Assembly: GCA_020061125.1 (NCBI GenBank)
Contig: JAGUYV010000082.1
Location: forward strand, 1-6,039
Direction: 5' to 3'
Length of the DNA: 6,039 bases
From: a bacterium
GTDB taxonomy: Bacteria > UBP15 > UBA6099 > DSWB01
The first letter of the stretch is position 1; each line of letters starts with the position of its first letter. Below the pieces are notes generated by a model. The model was given only the letters and a program-made list of their open reading frames with translations, was not told the origin of the DNA and did no database searches. Shown here piece after piece: positions 1-6,039 of this stretch. Both the position numbers and the translations under genes were made by a program.

Positions 1-2
1 AT

Positions 3-962
3 TACGAATTCCCGCTCGCGGACTCGGGCCATCATGTCTCGGGTTCGCTGTTCCTGCACCTTATCGAAGGCCTGCCGTACCTCTATGTGAGCGGGTGCAT
101 GGAACTGCCGCAGACCGAGTGCCGGGATGTGGACAACAATGTGTCCACGCGCATCGGCGTGAAATACGACAAGCGCTGGATCGAGGTCGCGCCGGTGAAC
201 CTGCGCCCCGCACTGCGCAACCTGCAGGGCAAATACCTCAAAATCTGGAAACACAATTATCAGGACATAACGCACGCATACGAGTTGAACTGGGGCGCCA
301 TAGACCCCGGCAACAGGAATGTGAGCAGTTTCAACAACCATGTCACGGACGGATGGGTGGCCGCTGGCAACGGCGAATGCGGGCTTGTGGTGGCGCACGA
401 CCAGGCCGTGAACACGGCGCCGGCCAGTTGCCCCATGCGCCTGCGCGAGCGCGCCGGACAGCAAACGCTGATGCTGAACCCGTTCGGCACCTACCACGGC
501 GAACAGCTCACGCACCTGCCCGACGGGACCGGAGTTGCGCGCGAACTGGCCGTGCACAGCATCCCCCACTGCCAGTCCACGGCTCCGAGCTACAACGGAC
601 GCGCGGTGTATTTCAGCCTCATGCTCGCATTCTACGAGGGCGATGCGCCGCCCGCGCAGGTGCAGAACGACGCCGCGGCGTTCAGCATGCCGCCCGTGCT
701 GCTCCAGGGCGGCGAATCCGGCTATGCGGCCGCGCGCACGCCCGAACACGGCTTCGCCCTGGCTGGGTTCGACCCGGCCGCGGAATTCGATCTCGACGCC
801 GTGAGCGGCTGGGATTACGGGCAGTTCCTGGAACTAGCCAACCGCGCACAGGGCGCGGATAAAACCACCAGCAAACAGCACGATATCCCCAAACTCCCGT
901 TCCATGTCATGCGCCATCTTGTGCGGGACATGTTCCGCGCCACTTTCAAAATCAGCGGTTAA
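3..962 (+). CDS. Unrecognised protein, C-terminal part (open at left edge)
   Basis: The frame is open from base 3. The 28 codons before the GTG at 87 read as sensible protein (YEFPLADSGHHVSGSLF...), so GTG 87 is almost certainly internal and the true start lies left of the window. About 319 residues are visible, ending at TAA 960-962. I do not recognise the family with confidence. The segment is rich in aromatic, Asn and Gly residues typical of beta-sandwich or carbohydrate-active folds: NHVTDGWVAAGNGECGL, LMLNPFGTYHG and YFSLMLAFYEGD are the most distinctive stretches. No membrane helix is obvious. The C-terminus is a basic amphipathic stretch (HVMRHLVRDMFRATFKI) with no LPXTG or other sorting signal. 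It ends 15 nt before the MFS gene, so the two probably share a transcript. A role in processing the solute carried by the neighbour, for example a glycoside-active enzyme, is inference only. Confidence 0.8.
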   Translation, partial: YEFPLADSGHHVSGSLFLHLIEGLPYLYVSGCMELPQTECRDVDNNVSTRIGVKYDKRWIEVAPVNLRPALRNLQGKYLKIWKHNYQDITHAYELNWGAIDPGNRNVSSFNNHVTDGWVAAGNGECGLVVAHDQAVNTAPASCPMRLRERAGQQTLMLNPFGTYHGEQLTHLPDGTGVARELAVHSIPHCQSTAPSYNGRAVYFSLMLAFYEGDAPPAQVQNDAAAFSMPPVLLQGGESGYAAARTPEHGFALAGFDPAAEFDLDAVSGWDYGQFLELANRAQGADKTTSKQHDIPKLPFHVMRHLVRDMFRATFKISG

Positions 963-977
963 GAAAGGATTCGTTCA

Positions 978-2894
978 ATGGCCTCACCCGGAAAACCCCA
1001 AAAGAAACAGGTCATCGGCGAAAAGGTCAGCCTGCGTTATGCCTGGTACGCCCTGTTCGTGCTCTTCCTGGTCAATCTGATCAATTACATTGACCGCTTG
1101 AGCATCGGCCCGGCCATGGAAATCATCAAGCGCGACTTTCGGGTCACGGACACGCAGATGGGCCTTGTGTATTCGTCGTTCATCTTCGTGTACGCGGTGG
1201 TGTCCCTGCCCATGGGCTTTTTGTCGGACCGCGGCAGGCGCACGCGCATCATCGCCCTGGGCGCGTTCGTGTGGAGCCTGTGCACCACGGCGTCGGGCTT
1301 CATGCACCGGTTCTGGGCCTTTTTCTTCATGCGGGCCGCGGTCGGCAGCGGCGAAGGCATTTACGCGCCCAGCGGCACGGCTATCGTGTCTGACTACTTC
1401 CCGCAGCGCCTGCGCAACACGGCCATCGCCATCTTCATGTCCGCCATGATTGTGGGCGGCGCGGGCGCGTTCATCTTCGCCGGCATGATTCTGGACGCCA
1501 AAGAGCGCTTCGACATGAAGAAGCTCAAGCCCCTGGTTGTCAGCGAACAGGTGATGCGCGACTCCGGCTGGGAATTCAAAAACGCCGGCACGGTGAACAA
1601 GAAACACGCTTCGTTTGAATTCGAGTCCGGCGGCTCTTCGCTCACCGTGGCGCTCAAGAAATTCGACGGCAAGGAAGACAAACACGAGAAAAGCCGGAGC
1701 AAAGGCATAGACATCTACGCGGAAAGCCTGCTTTTCGACATCTATCTCGTCAAGCACGGCAAGTCAACGGGCCTGGCGCTCACGGACGGCGAAAAGCGCC
1801 TGGCGGACGCCGTGGCCGCGCGCATCAAGGCGCACGAGGGCGACCCCATAAAAGAATCCCGCGGCCACCTCGAATCCCTGCCCCACAAGTTCAAAATCCC
1901 GAAGCAGTACGAGGACCGGTTCAGCTACGACAAGAAGAGCAAAGAGCTTGTGTGGAAAGGCGTGATGACAAAGAAGGACAAGCTCGCGCTGCTGGCGATT
2001 TCCGACAGCGAGCATTACAGCAAAGTCGTCACTTCGATGTATTCGGACACGGCGTACCATTACCTGAAGACCGACAACTGGCGCTGGATTTTCTGGATTC
2101 TGGGGCCTCCGGGGCTTCTGCTGGCGCTGCTGGCGTTCCTGCTCAAGGAACCGCTCAAGGGCGGCGGAGAAGAGTTCTTGAGCGAAGAGGAAGCGCGCAA
2201 GGCCGAGGAACATGGCAAGGTGGATTACAAGCTAATCTTCAAAACGCCGTCCGTGATGCTGCTGATGATATCCAACATTCTGGCCACATACTGCGTGGGC
2301 GGGCTTGTGGCGTGGCTGTTCCCATATGTGGAACGATACAAGCACATCGAGGCCGCGGAAGCGTCCATGACCTTCGGCCCGGTAGTGGTGGGCGCGTCCG
2401 TGGTGGGCGTGATCGTGAGCGGCATCCTCGCGGACCGGCTCATGAAAATCACCCCGCGCGGCAACAACATCGTGCTGGTGCTGGCCATCCTGCTTGGCAC
2501 CCCGTTCCTGTACCTGTTCCTGTATGAAAAGCACAGCATGACCATGATGCTGGTGTACATTTCCTGCGCCATGTTCTTCCTGACCTGGCTGAACGGACCG
2601 CTGAACGCGCTGCTCATGAGCCTGGTGGAGCCGCGGCTGCGCGCTTCGGTCAACGCCGTGCACATCCTGCTCATTCATGTGCTGGGCGACGCTTTGTCTC
2701 CCATCGTCATCGGGCACTATTCCGATGTCAAGAGCCTTGAGTACGCGCTGGCCATCACCCCCCTGTTCCTCATCGCGGGCATGATCGGCTTCGGCATTGC
2801 GGGCGTGTTCGTGCCCAAGGATCTCAAGGCCGTGGAGCTGCGCATGAAAGCCGCGGGCATCGTGGACGACGGCAAAAAGCCCATGGGCCATTAA
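978..2894 (+). CDS. Spinster-like MFS transporter with large TM5-TM6 insert
   Basis: A 638-residue inner-membrane secondary carrier. The ATG at 978 is supported by GAAAGGA (963-969), 8 nt upstream. Family marks are NYIDR near the end of TM1 (residues 36-40), motif A GFLSDRGRRTR between TM2 and TM3 (80-90), GSGEGIYAPSG in TM4 (123-133), GILADRLMK in the C-terminal half (482-490), and RASVNAVHILLIHVLGDALSP followed by IGHYSD (555-583). The last block is typical of the bacterial spinster/hexuronate-like MFS group. TM1-5 cover about residues 20-172 and TM6 begins at NWRWIFWILG (367-376). Between them lie ~194 hydrophilic, Lys-rich residues (about 173-366), absent from ordinary 400-450-residue members. 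With the N-terminus inside, this loop should face the periplasm. TM7-12 cover about 425-612. The C-terminal tail is short and charged. The substrate cannot be read from the sequence; organic anions, sugar acids and lipids are all known or proposed in related carriers. The gene likely forms an operon with the upstream gene. Confidence 0.9.
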   Translation: MASPGKPQKKQVIGEKVSLRYAWYALFVLFLVNLINYIDRLSIGPAMEIIKRDFRVTDTQMGLVYSSFIFVYAVVSLPMGFLSDRGRRTRIIALGAFVWSLCTTASGFMHRFWAFFFMRAAVGSGEGIYAPSGTAIVSDYFPQRLRNTAIAIFMSAMIVGGAGAFIFAGMILDAKERFDMKKLKPLVVSEQVMRDSGWEFKNAGTVNKKHASFEFESGGSSLTVALKKFDGKEDKHEKSRSKGIDIYAESLLFDIYLVKHGKSTGLALTDGEKRLADAVAARIKAHEGDPIKESRGHLESLPHKFKIPKQYEDRFSYDKKSKELVWKGVMTKKDKLALLAISDSEHYSKVVTSMYSDTAYHYLKTDNWRWIFWILGPPGLLLALLAFLLKEPLKGGGEEFLSEEEARKAEEHGKVDYKLIFKTPSVMLLMISNILATYCVGGLVAWLFPYVERYKHIEAAEASMTFGPVVVGASVVGVIVSGILADRLMKITPRGNNIVLVLAILLGTPFLYLFLYEKHSMTMMLVYISCAMFFLTWLNGPLNALLMSLVEPRLRASVNAVHILLIHVLGDALSPIVIGHYSDVKSLEYALAITPLFLIAGMIGFGIAGVFVPKDLKAVELRMKAAGIVDDGKKPMGH

Positions 2895-2932
2895 CCCCTG
2901 GCCGCGCCAATGTGGCGTTTCTCAAGAATCAC

Positions 2933-2961
2933 AAAAGCCCCGCCGCACGGCGGGGCTTTTT
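2933..2961 (+). terminator. Rho-independent terminator, possibly bidirectional
   Basis: A 12-bp perfect stem (2933-2944, AAAAGCCCCGCC, with 2949-2960, GGCGGGGCTTTT) closes a GCAC tetraloop, and the T run extends to 2961. It lies 38 nt after the MFS stop codon. On the opposite strand the same stem is followed by TTTT, so it could also end the convergent flavoprotein transcript. A smaller hairpin (CGCCA-ATG-TGGCG, 2905-2917, then TTT) precedes it. Confidence 0.9.
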
Positions 2962-2983
2962 CGTAGCTGATTGGAATGACCGG

Positions 2984-2988
2984 AAGAT
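2984..2988. repeat. Left target-site duplication AAGAT
   Basis: AAGAT directly abuts the left inverted terminus of the 131-bp element. An identical AAGAT at 3120-3124 abuts the right terminus. A perfect 5-bp direct repeat exactly outside both termini is the signature of transposition. Confidence 0.7.
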
Positions 2989-3119
2989 GGGGCTGTTGAA
3001 AAAGCCAGGCGGCCGTAAAAAACAGGTACAGGCACGCGTAAAAACGCCGCGTTCCCAGTCCCTAATTTTTTACTGCGTTCGCGCTTGTGCCGCAGCTTAT
3101 CGGATTTTTCAACACCCCC
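2989..3119. mobile_element. MITE-like non-autonomous element, 131 bp
   Basis: The two ends form an ungapped 18-bp terminal inverted repeat: left GGGGCTGTTGAAAAAGCC (2989-3006), and right, read on the minus strand from 3119, GGGGGTGTTGAAAAATCC. They match at 16 of 18 positions. Both ends are flanked by AAGAT. The interior has no credible gene and carries a second inverted pair, GTAAAAAA (3015-3022) with TTTTTTAC (3066-3073). Its size, termini and target duplication fit a MITE mobilised in trans by a full-length insertion sequence elsewhere in the genome. GTTGAAAAA-type ends occur on several IS groups, so I do not assign a transposase family. The element sits between the terminator of the MFS gene and the stop codon of the flavoprotein gene. 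A structured non-mobile intergenic repeat is the alternative, but the target duplication argues against it. Confidence 0.72.
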
Positions 3120-3124
3120 AAGAT
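3120..3124. repeat. Right target-site duplication AAGAT
   Basis: This second AAGAT copy overlaps by one base (3124) the TTA that is the minus-strand stop codon of the flavoprotein gene. The duplication restored the stop codon, so the insertion left that reading frame intact. Confidence 0.7.
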
Positions 3125-3705
3125 TACTTGTTCTCGCCGCGCGCCAGAAGCGCACCCAGGTCGAAAGCCTGCTGCAACAGCTCTGGATGTGTGCGGATTT
3201 CGCCCTTGTGATCCACGCTGCGCACACACATTTCATGCGCCAGATCCACATTGATGGCGTCGAAGTAATACTTCACGGTCATGCGCAGTCCGTCGAACAG
3301 GGTCTTGCCCTTTGTGGCGCCCACTGCCACGAGCGCTCCGGGCCGCCGCGGCCGTTCGGCGTATTCGGGCTTTTTATTCACATACTTCTGATTCCACTGC
3401 TCCTGCACGCGGCCGATGAGGATCATGGCCTGTGTGCTGACCGTGTAGAAATGCACCGGAGTCGCAAAGGCGATGGCGTCCGCGCGGTCCAGTTCGGTGG
3501 CCACTTTCGAGTAATCGTCGTCCTGAAAGCAATGGCCAAGCTCGATGCAGCGGTCGCAGCCGATGCACGGGCCGAGCTTGAGCTTGCGCGCGAACAGTTC
3601 CGCGGTTTCCGCGCCCTGCGCGGCTGCTCCGCGCAGCAGTTCCTTCATGAGAATGTCCGAATTCCCGTCTTTTCGAGGGCTTGTGTAGATTCCCAGAACG
3701 CGCAT
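3124..3705 (-). CDS. Iron-sulfur flavoprotein / NADPH-dependent FMN reductase-like
   Basis: A 193-residue cytoplasmic flavodoxin-fold protein. The N-terminal beta strand and phosphate loop VLGIYTSPRKDGNSD (residues 3-17) match the FMN-binding loop of the NADPH-dependent FMN reductase family. Residues 47-59 give C47-X2-C50-X2-C53-X5-C59 (PCIGCDRCIELGHC), the compact cysteine motif that binds a 4Fe-4S cluster in archaeal and bacterial ISF proteins. FATPVHFYTVS (80-90) fills the usual flavin-side loop 'sPvYf', and GALVAVGATKGKT (123-135) the next strand and loop. The length is normal for the family. The start is clear: ATG at 3705-3703 behind AAAGGAGA. Such proteins pass electrons between ferredoxin-like donors and acceptors, often linked to oxidative-stress defence; the partner is unknown here. 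The gene stands alone, convergent with the MFS gene and divergent from the TPR/GYF_2 gene. His replaces the more usual Tyr/Trp in the PVHF loop. Confidence 0.9.
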   Translation of the reverse strand: MRVLGIYTSPRKDGNSDILMKELLRGAAAQGAETAELFARKLKLGPCIGCDRCIELGHCFQDDDYSKVATELDRADAIAFATPVHFYTVSTQAMILIGRVQEQWNQKYVNKKPEYAERPRRPGALVAVGATKGKTLFDGLRMTVKYYFDAINVDLAHEMCVRSVDHKGEIRTHPELLQQAFDLGALLARGENK

Positions 3706-3710
3706 GTGTG

Positions 3711-3718
3711 TCTCCTTT
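3711..3718 (-). promoter_or_regulatory. Shine-Dalgarno site of the flavoprotein gene
   Basis: On the minus strand this reads AAAGGAGA, 5 nt before the ATG. It is the best ribosome-binding site in the window and fixes that start. Confidence 0.85.
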
Positions 3719-3741
3719 GTAAATTATCGAGATAGTGTTTT

Positions 3742-3816
3742 AAGGACACCGCGGAGGCGCGGAGTTCTCTTTTCAACGCGGCCTTTGGCCGCGTTATTCG
3801 TGTCCTTGGTGTCCTT
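3742..3816. repeat. Nested inverted-repeat intergenic element
   Basis: The outer arms AAGGACACC (3742-3750) and GGTGTCCTT (3808-3816) are perfect reverse complements. Inside them sits a perfect 9-bp hairpin (3775-3795). The left arm continues into two CGCGGAG copies with an 8-nt period (3750-3756, 3758-3764). The right arm carries two GTGTCCTT copies with a 9-nt period (3800-3807, 3809-3816). No coding potential or target duplication was found. From memory, CCACGAAGGACACCAAGGACACGAA-type strings are frequent intergenic repeats in several environmental bacterial phyla. Confidence 0.65.
3775..3795. repeat. Perfect 9-bp hairpin without a U run
   Basis: AACGCGGCC (3775-3783), loop TTT, GGCCGCGTT (3787-3795). 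It is very stable on either strand, but no T tract follows on either side, so it is not a classical terminator. It could protect an RNA end or simply be part of the repeat element. Confidence 0.75.
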
Positions 3817-3920
3817 CGTGGATAACTCTTTTCGCCTTTCCTCTATGACCCTCCGTGCTTATCATTGTTCTTATCTTTCCTACGCGAACCTTTGCGATCT
3901 CTGCGTCAATCATTTCTTCC
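3817..3920. repeat. Strand-biased purine/pyrimidine intergenic tract
   Basis: Read on the minus strand, this stretch is strongly purine-biased and made of degenerate short units: GACGCAGAGATCGCAAAGG near 3890-3908, CACGGAGGGTCATAGAGG near 3841-3858, and GGCGAAAAGAGTTATCCACG near 3817-3836. Such strings resemble widespread intergenic repeats that produce spurious 'GHRGHEGHE' translations. I see no gene in it. With the nested inverted repeat it fills most of the 339-nt divergent spacer; the remainder (3921-3986) shows nothing I can name. Confidence 0.5.
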
Positions 3921-3988
3921 TGCTCCTGTCCCGCAGCATATTGTAACATTGCCGCAGCGCGCAAGGTTTCATGCGCGCTCAAAAGGAA

Positions 3989-4019
3989 TTGCGGCAATTT
4001 TCATAATTATACGGATAAT
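3989..4019 (+). promoter_or_regulatory. Possible promoter of the TPR/GYF_2 gene
   Basis: The spacer turns sharply AT-rich just before the gene. TTGCGG (3989-3994) and GATAAT (4014-4019), 19 bp apart, could be -35 and -10 boxes and would start transcription near 4026. The spacing is long and the -35 is poor. The 13-bp palindrome AATTGCGGCAATT (3987-3999) covers the -35 and could be an operator. Confidence 0.3.
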
Positions 4020-4044
4020 ATATGCAGGGAAAGCAACACGGGAG

Positions 4045-5715
4045 ATGCACGCGTTGAAATCGCTCGCCAACATGACCCTGGGCGAACTGCTCGAGGCTTT
4101 TGAGGGCAATCCGAACAGTCCGGACATCAACTACGCCATCGGGCGCAAGCTCATGGCGCTCGAAAAATACAAAGTCGCCATCGAGTATTTCCAGACAAGC
4201 ATTGCGCTCAAGCCCAGGTTTCCGGAAGCCTATCTGGCGCTGTCCGAATTGTTCGACAAGGCCGGGGACGCCGCCGCGTCCGCGCATTTCCGCTCGGCCG
4301 CGGAAAAGCTGTTCCAGGAAGCCGAAACCCGAAGCGAGGCCAGGACACAGGCCCCGGCCGCGGAACCCGAACCGGAACTCGAAGAAGACTCGAACAGAGT
4401 CTGGTACTACCGTTTCGCGGGGGAGGAATTCGGGCCGTTCTCCCTGGACGAAATGCGCGAGATCGCCCGCACCGGCGACATTCACCGCCAGACCCGGGTG
4501 TGGCGCACCGGGCAGAGCCGCTGGCTCACGGCCGAAGAGGTGCCGGAACTCGACGCCATCACCGGCGCCGCCATGCGCAGCCTTGTGCCGGGATACCTCG
4601 AACCCGGAACCAGGTCCTCTTACGCACCCGCGCCGCCAAAGGAACCGGCCACGCCCGAACCAGCGCCGGAAATCCCGCAACCGGTTGAAATGCCGCCCGC
4701 GCCAGAGCCGGAACCTGTCTCTGTTCCGCTTCCGCCGCTCCCTCCGCCGGTTCCGCCACGGCCCATTCCGGAACCCGTTTCGCCCGAACCACAACCTGTC
4801 TCCGAAGAACCGCAGGCCGTGGAGCAGGAACAGGATCCTGTTCCTCCATCCGCTGCCCAAACACCGGCCGCGCACGAGCCGGAAGATATTGCGCCAACCC
4901 CCGAGCCAGTGGCGGAGATTCCGGCACAGGTCGAATTTGAACCCGCGCCCCTGCCCGAGCCGCCGCCCGCCATTGAACCGCAAGACCCCGCTCCGCAACA
5001 AGTTGCCGAAACTGAACCGCCCGCGCCCGGGGAACAACCCGGATACGAACCCGCCGAGGACATCCCGGACATCACCTTCGAGGACTTGCTTCCCAAGCCC
5101 AGAAAACGAAGACAGCCCAAACCGCCCAGAGAACCCAAGCCGCGCAAGGAACCCAAGCCGCCCAGGGAGCGCAAACCCCGCGTGCGGCCCGAGAAACCAC
5201 CGAAACCCAAGCGCGAGCCGCGCCCCAAACCAGAGCCCAAACCCGCACAACCAAGGGAACGCCCGGGCCTCGCGCGCCGGATTCTGAATGCGGCGTTCAT
5301 GATGGCCGCCATCGCCGCCGTGGCCCTGGCCGTACTGCAGGCGCGCGACTGGTACGCCGAGCGCACACAAACGCCCCCGCCCCCGCCGCAAAAAGCGGCC
5401 CTGGCGTACATCAACGCTTTGCACTCCGGCGATCAAAAAGCGATTAAAGCGTCGCTGTCAAGAGACAGCATGGAGGCCGCGCCGGACAAAGGCGCATACG
5501 CGGCCGTGGACTTTGTGGCGCGCGCGGCTGCGGACCCGGACATGCGGTTCACCATCATTGATGTCAAACAGCAGGGCGGCCAGGCCATTGTGCGCGGCGC
5601 GCTCAAATCCCCGGACACGCCGGAGATCACCATCGAATTCCTGTTTTTCCTCGAAAACAACGCCTGGAAAATCCACGAAATCAACGAGCGCATCGAGGGC
5701 GCATTGAGTTTTTGA
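4045..5715 (+). CDS. TPR / GYF_2 / Pro-rich single-pass membrane protein with DUF4878-like C-terminus
   Basis: A 556-residue protein from ATG 4045. The frame is open further back to 3865, but that stretch only translates repeats and the AT-rich promoter segment. TTG 4054 has the better-spaced site (GGGAG, 4040-4044, 9 nt away) and is a real alternative start. Domains in order: TPR-like helices at about residues 26-92 (AIGRKLMALEKYKVAIEYF, ALKPRFPEAYLALSELF); a GYF_2 domain at about 119-168 (WYYRFAGEEFGPFSLDEM, then TRVWRTGQSRWLTAEEVPEL); an acidic Pro/Glu-rich linker 190-350; a basic Lys/Pro/Arg-rich linker 351-409; one TM helix at about 412-431; and an exported domain at about 447-556 with the ALAYINALHSGD start and AWKIHEI end typical of NTF2-like DUF4878 proteins. 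Positive charge before the helix predicts the N-terminus inside. No enzymatic motif is visible. A scaffold linking a cytoplasmic peptide-binding domain to the cell envelope is inferred. Function is unknown. Confidence 0.88.
   Translation: MHALKSLANMTLGELLEAFEGNPNSPDINYAIGRKLMALEKYKVAIEYFQTSIALKPRFPEAYLALSELFDKAGDAAASAHFRSAAEKLFQEAETRSEARTQAPAAEPEPELEEDSNRVWYYRFAGEEFGPFSLDEMREIARTGDIHRQTRVWRTGQSRWLTAEEVPELDAITGAAMRSLVPGYLEPGTRSSYAPAPPKEPATPEPAPEIPQPVEMPPAPEPEPVSVPLPPLPPPVPPRPIPEPVSPEPQPVSEEPQAVEQEQDPVPPSAAQTPAAHEPEDIAPTPEPVAEIPAQVEFEPAPLPEPPPAIEPQDPAPQQVAETEPPAPGEQPGYEPAEDIPDITFEDLLPKPRKRRQPKPPREPKPRKEPKPPRERKPRVRPEKPPKPKREPRPKPEPKPAQPRERPGLARRILNAAFMMAAIAAVALAVLQARDWYAERTQTPPPPPQKAALAYINALHSGDQKAIKASLSRDSMEAAPDKGAYAAVDFVARAAADPDMRFTIIDVKQQGGQAIVRGALKSPDTPEITIEFLFFLENNAWKIHEINERIEGALSF
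5131..5161 (+). repeat. Short direct repeat inside the basic Pro-rich linker
   Basis: GAACCCAAGCCGC occurs at 5131-5143 and again at 5149-5161, an 18-nt period that preserves the frame. It encodes the EPKPR and EPKPP units of the basic linker. This suggests the linker grew by in-frame slippage or small duplications. Confidence 0.7.
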
Positions 5716-5729
5716 CGCGCGGCGCCGGA

Positions 5730-5758
5730 TTGAACGGGCATTGCGTTTCTGTTAATAT
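5730..5758 (+). promoter_or_regulatory. Sigma70-like promoter of the SLBB gene
   Basis: TTGAAC (5730-5735), a 17-bp spacer, then TAATAT (5753-5758), in the 80-nt spacer between two co-oriented genes. Transcription would start near 5765, giving a leader of about 31 nt before ATG 5796. Each box matches the consensus at four of six positions and the spacing is ideal. Confidence 0.45.
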
Positions 5759-5795
5759 GTGACAACAAAATCCGGAACGGGCGTGAACGCGCGCA

Positions 5796-6039
5796 ATGGC
5801 CAAAACCCTGACCAGAACCCAGAAGTGGCTGCTGGCGATATTTTTAATCGCCGTGCCAGCCGGGGGCGCGGCGCGGCTAGTTATGTCCAGCGACTGGTAC
5901 GCAAAGCGCAACAGCGGCGCGCTGTCCGTGTCCCAGGACAAACCCGCGGCCATGATCACCGTGGATGTGGACGGCGCGGTGTCCAAACCCGGCGTGTACC
6001 GGCTGGCATCCGGCTCCACTCTGGGCGCGGCGCTCGAAC
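5796..6039 (+). CDS. Membrane-anchored SLBB-domain protein, ComEA-like (cut by right edge)
   Basis: 81 codons are visible before the window ends. The start is well fixed: an in-frame TGA at 5784-5786 lies just upstream and ATG 5796 is the only start codon after it. The ribosome site is weak (GGAACGGG, about 14 nt away). Residues 1-10 (MAKTLTRTQK) are basic, residues 11-30 form a hydrophobic signal anchor (WLLAIFLIAVPAGGAARLVM), and a short polar linker follows. From residue 55, TVDVDGAVSKPGVYRLASGS and then TLGAALE match the first half of an SLBB domain as found in ComEA-type competence proteins and polysaccharide export proteins. In ComEA an exported helix-hairpin-helix DNA-binding domain would follow, but that part lies outside the window, so competence is not established. 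Topology should be N-terminus inside with the SLBB domain outside. The region after the anchor (SSDWYAKRNS) resembles the one after the TM helix of the upstream gene. Confidence 0.8.
   Translation, partial: MAKTLTRTQKWLLAIFLIAVPAGGAARLVMSSDWYAKRNSGALSVSQDKPAAMITVDVDGAVSKPGVYRLASGSTLGAALE

Follow-up and report, generated by a model that had tools for sequence, protein, structure and literature searches.

The described systems closest to the locus reported here are the insertion sequences of the IS1182 family, the bacterial MITEs and the REP or REPIN repeats with their RAYT transposases. IS1272, a member of the IS1182 family, was reported to insert at inverted repeats, and newly inserted IS1272 replaced these repeats with no target duplication (PMC5678879). 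REPs are sequences of 20–40 bp grouped into two super-families, marked by a GTAG or a CGTC tag at the hairpin foot (PMC3733652). A literature search on IS1182 MITEs yielded no direct report.

The window, that is the whole stretch of DNA analysed, comprises positions 1 to 6,039 of the forward strand of contig JAGUYV010000082.1 (assembly GCA_020061125.1; lineage UBP15; UBA6099; DSWB01) and contains a 131-bp element at 2989–3119. This element resembles the bacterial MITEs in being short and non-coding, in its terminal inverted repeats, fixed-length duplication and many copies, and in having termini in common with an autonomous IS family; it differs from them in the independently dispersed REP-like palindrome that it carries and in the nested mosaics that are formed through this palindrome. 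The terminal repeats are common over 15 bp with two full-length members of the IS1182 family, from which the element differs in its length of 131 bp and in the lack of a transposase. As regards IS1272, the palindromic targets are a feature of related terminus-bearing elements in other bacteria too, while its new insertions without duplication contrast with the clear 5-bp duplications of the family described here (PMC5678879). The best explanation, to which a probability of about 0.88 can be given, is that a transposase of the IS1182 family moved this non-autonomous MITE with a 5-bp cut, and that the MITE carries inside it a REP-like palindrome which is itself a target. The composite structure is instructive, and the unexpected part is a palindrome that is both carried inside and a hot spot. 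The locus contributes a MITE family, well supported, that combines IS1182 ends with a 5-bp duplication. It also offers a testable case in which one repeat family carries and is targeted by another, and bears on the spread of REP-like palindromes in cases in which a matching RAYT gene does not appear beside them.

The element between two convergent genes

The features of the locus are the following.

978–2894, plus strand: MFS transporter, the convergent neighbour
2933–2961, no strand: perfect 13-bp hairpin between the convergent genes, resembling a terminator, with T-runs on either strand
2984–2988, no strand: left target duplication AAGAT (sequence; the exact border agrees with the family alignment)
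2989–3119, plus strand: MITE, type A copy, 131 bp (genomic matches, duplication statistics and divergence)
2989–3006, plus strand: left terminal inverted repeat GGGGCTGTTGAAAAAGCC (repeat search)
3016–3072, no strand: REP-like imperfect palindrome (TAAAAAACAGGTACAGGCACGCG...CGCGTTCCCAGTCCCTAATTTTTTA) of about 57 bp, inside the MITE (copies in other genomes, alignment)
3102–3119, minus strand: right terminal inverted repeat, identical to the left one at 16 of 18 positions (repeat search)
3120–3124, no strand: right target duplication AAGAT (sequence)
3124–3705, minus strand: NADPH-dependent FMN reductase/flavodoxin-fold protein, 193 aa, intact

The left end, GGGGCTGTTGAAAAAGCC, and the right end read inward, GGGGGTGTTGAAAAATCC, are identical at 16 of 18 positions without gaps, and a repeat search independently recovers the same terminal pair (19 nt, 89%). 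The original prediction of a 131-bp element with 18-bp inverted ends and AAGAT directly outside both is borne out by the sequence. The element contains no transposase gene; the open reading frames crossing it are mechanical and extend through it into the flanks.

The flavoprotein gene (Pfam FMN_red, E 2.1e-15) has its stop codon at 3126–3124 on the minus strand, and T3124 is common to this codon and to the right AAGAT, whose final base occupies the third position of the stop. The proposed insertion at the stop codon agrees with this overlap, while the further statement that the duplication "rebuilt" the stop is overstated: had AAGAT not been duplicated, the codon would be TAG, likewise a stop, and so the flavoprotein stop was never at risk. 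The stop codon is TAA before and after the insertion. In the proposed mechanism, one copy would have entered an AAGAT overlapping the flavoprotein stop and duplicated it, leaving the protein unchanged; judging from the sequence, the insertion looks harmless for the two flanking genes.

The hairpin upstream of the element has its arms at 2933–2945 and 2948–2960, and the removal of 136 nt leaves, as had been calculated, 26 nt between its end (2961) and the stop. The suggestion that the element has pushed away a shared bidirectional terminator fits geometrically; with the element in place, a minus-strand transcript arrives at the hairpin only after passing through the element, and terminator prediction gave none inside the element. 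As for an empty site, the nearest genomes compared come from other families of the order, in which the best flavoprotein matches reach only 33–36% identity. Three copies of the element, namely that at 2989–3119 and those at L025 and L027, each follow a perfect terminator-like hairpin at a distance of no more than about 60 nt. Elsewhere in the window, a plus-strand gene at 4048–5712 encodes TPR and GYF_2 domains, a long linker rich in proline, glutamate and lysine, and a SnoaL-like C-terminal domain.

Copies and target duplications in the same genome

The assembly of the same genome (G000) consists of 513 contigs and 4.1 Mb and is 79% complete. BLASTN of the element against it gave 43 matches (E <= 0.001), many of which start at query base 11 and stop near 141, corresponding to 2989 and 3119; in addition, a 16-bp terminus with up to two mismatches occurs at 81 sites, compared with 5 for the reversed control. 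Loci were merged by contig, termini were paired and flanks were read, with 29 paired copies as the result; the copies entering the duplication statistics measure 125–311 bp. At the nominal border, 8 of the 29 show a 5-bp duplication without mismatch (AAGAT, ACCGT, GCAGT, ACTGG, ATCAG, AAAAT, GGTCA and AATCT), whereas 10,000 trials with shuffled right flanks averaged 0.39 and never exceeded 5. Fourteen copies match at four or five of the five duplication positions (1.15 when shuffled), and among duplication lengths from 2 to 10 the only peak is at 5. A ninth 5-bp duplication (AAAGT) appears if one border is shifted by one base, and one copy shows a 6-bp duplication (ATGTGT). The 15 copies of 29 without a good duplication (three or fewer of five matches) are presumably affected by decay or nesting. 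The copy at 2989–3119 diverges by 5.4% from the type-A consensus, and divergence among ten aligned copies ranges from 5 to 17%; the family is therefore not a fresh burst.

The copies can be divided into four groups.

Type A: about 130 bp, including the copy at 2989–3119
Type B: about 149 bp, same terminus
Type C: 160 bp, same terminus
Hybrids: about 310 bp, with A at the start and B at the end

All of them contain the imperfect palindrome GGGACTGGG-inner stem-GCCTGT(A/C)CC and the inner stems differ.

These further copies, with sharp borders and differing 5-bp duplications in the same genome, had been expected from the MITE reading and confirm the 131-bp element as a MITE. A fixed intergenic structure, an RNA or a terminator that does not move, would suit the position between convergent genes and the folding of the element, which is strong for its composition (z -2.5); nevertheless, dozens of copies occur in unrelated contexts with differing 5-bp duplications, and an Rfam search with the element gave no match. 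As the sole explanation a fixed structure is refuted by the copies elsewhere in the genome, and as a reading of the locus it is hardly credible.

Terminal repeats and the IS1182 family

A scan of contigs for the terminus retrieved, among the matches listed, elements of other bacteria that include two full-length ISs, one of 1418 bp from Deltaproteobacteria (L190) and the other of 1325 bp (L227). Each end of both matches the terminus at 15 of 15 positions, and the first 15 bases of GGGGCTGTTGAAAAAGCC are identical to these ends. Their transposases score above the IS1182 cut-off of NCBIfam NF033551 and match Pfam DUF772 and DDE_Tnp_1. In particular, these likenesses in sequence are good evidence that IS1182 is the source family of the MITE. 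The target duplication at a further element, L180, is 5 bp (CCCCG), the flanks of L190 have 4 bp in common (AAGT), and those of L227 match at 3 of 5 positions. The transposase would recognise the GGGGCTGTTGAAAAA end and make a 5-bp staggered cut.

An intact IS1182 gene was not found in the 79%-complete assembly of the same genome, and its terminus site list showed no elements with these ends 1–2 kb apart. An HMM search revealed a piece of an IS1182 C terminus at C203:1620-1715 (E 1.4e-5); it lies immediately inward of a GGGGCTGTTGAACAAC terminus at 1461, has the same orientation as in L190 and L227, and is apparently a decayed relative of the autonomous partner. The expected full-length IS with the same termini was thus found in other bacteria, while the same genome offers only this apparent remnant. 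A DDE transposase of another family, sharing or converging on the terminus, might have driven a MITE with these ends, given a genome lacking an intact IS1182 gene and a terminus that in other bacteria also borders numerous elements without a transposase. This is improbable, as the full-length ISs tested with perfect termini at both ends (L190, L227) belong to IS1182, as does the C203 remnant, and the two DDE_Tnp_1 transposases of the same genome (L031, L032) were rejected as the source on account of their different inverted repeats (TAGTTAAGTATGGTGTCCC... and ACCCGCATTACCC..., respectively). Returning to IS1182, its transposase probably moved the copy at 2989–3119, and the autonomous partner would have decayed or be missing from the assembly.

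The REP-like palindrome and nested insertions

BLASTN of the element against G001, a genome of another family of the order, gave two hits, both confined to about 44 bp of the core, and these copies sit within an element with quite different ends. With this G001 element as the query, six genomes of the order (G001–G006) were searched for the core, which was present in five of them (G001–G004 and G006; 10–25 matches each) and was not found in G005. In G002–G004 and G006 the flanks of most copies show no relation outside CGAAAA...TTTTCG, and therefore the core stands alone in these genomes; some pairs have longer common flanks. The alignment supports the hairpin through four pairs in which both members have changed; the majority of these changes split the genome of the window from the rest and so represent few events. 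In G006, two copies of the core are located upstream of one Y1 transposase (RAYT) gene.

The core is considered REP-like because of its independent dispersal in the order and of the two copies upstream of the RAYT gene, and is not named REP since the GTAG/CGTC tag is absent; the aligned copies have (G)CGAAAA / TTTTCG(C) at the foot. It is akin to the REP and REPIN repeats with RAYT (PMC2817692, PMC3116915) as a dispersed imperfect palindrome adjacent to RAYT in G006, and it departs from REPs in its greater length, about 57 bp versus 20–40 bp, and in its CGAAAA/TTTTCG foot (PMC3733652); moreover, unlike those repeats, in the genome of the window it travels inside a MITE. RAYT may move the stand-alone palindrome. 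For the element as a whole, mobilisation by RAYT as a REP or REPIN-like element with incidental outer repeats is very improbable: the core is REP-like and adjoins a RAYT gene in G006, and the genome of the window has four Y1 transposase genes, but the copies are bounded by the outer repeats and show 5-bp duplications, types B and C have the same ends with other inner stems, and the core does not flank the RAYT genes of that genome, which were rejected as core carriers. The MITE, probably driven by IS1182, carries a REP-like palindrome that exists independently in the order.

The repeats around one RAYT gene of the same genome (L062, G000:C460, about 500–550 and 1245–1310), TGGGGACACCATRCTTAATT, resemble the inverted repeats TTAAGTATGGTGTCCC of the unrelated IS4-like element L031 (G000:C291, arms 1181–1218 and 2569–2606), as if the RAYT and IS4-like systems had a common end sequence.

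G001 harbours a second MITE family (L264, L270, L276, L282 and L310) with the same core and 22-bp ends TTGATTCCGGCGCAAAAAGTCC; two of its members, L282 and L310, have lost the hairpin centre in a clean deletion. An apparent 8-bp duplication of the G001 element did not hold up, as more copies placed its ends at 22 bp. A Hydrogenedentota MAG contains a MITE with the same ends as the element at 2989–3119 (L150 2315–2475 and L189 5434–5602; 5-bp duplications GGCGT and ACTGT) and a core of the same architecture, GCGAAAAGCAGGGACAG...CAGTCCCTGTTTTTCGC; a palindrome in a same-end MITE of this kind would mean that the association between MITE and palindrome arose or spread more than once.

Judging from the outer flanks of the terminus sites, terminus-bearing elements are inserted in the core of older elements, at the sequence AC[A/T]GG (complement CC[A/T]GT), at eight sites and in four element pairings.

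C into B: C31:23389-23548, C294:148 and C70:95
C into A: C494:3428 and C203:99 (one base ambiguous)
B into A: C71:18087 and C31:23621
A into B: C67:3639

Both sides of the junction are visible at C31:23389-23548 only, with ACTGG on each, and several other nested junctions run into a contig end; the ambiguous junctions C52:5347, C52:5425, C403:124 and C68:95 were left out of the count. A single event, later copied, may account for all three C-into-B junctions (C31, C294 and C70); counting them as one still leaves the four pairings. In other bacteria the targets of terminus-bearing elements are palindromic (58 paired positions versus 37 +/- 5.6 when shuffled, a significant difference), and the frameshifted L180 sits in the perfect palindromic target AACAGTC-CCCCG-GACTGTT. 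The targets of simple insertions in the genome of the window, that at 2989–3119 included, are not significantly palindromic (18 of 54).

The core is a favoured target, a hot spot for elements with the same ends, and insertion into the AC[A/T]GG of the palindrome gives rise to nested mosaics. A reciprocal relation, in which MITEs with IS1182 ends carry REP-like palindromes, the palindromes act as hot-spot targets and both are amplified jointly into nested mosaics, can be put forward tentatively, the odds being somewhat against it. At L081 (G000:C31:22500-24000) several type A, B and C elements form a cluster in which they are nested in one another.
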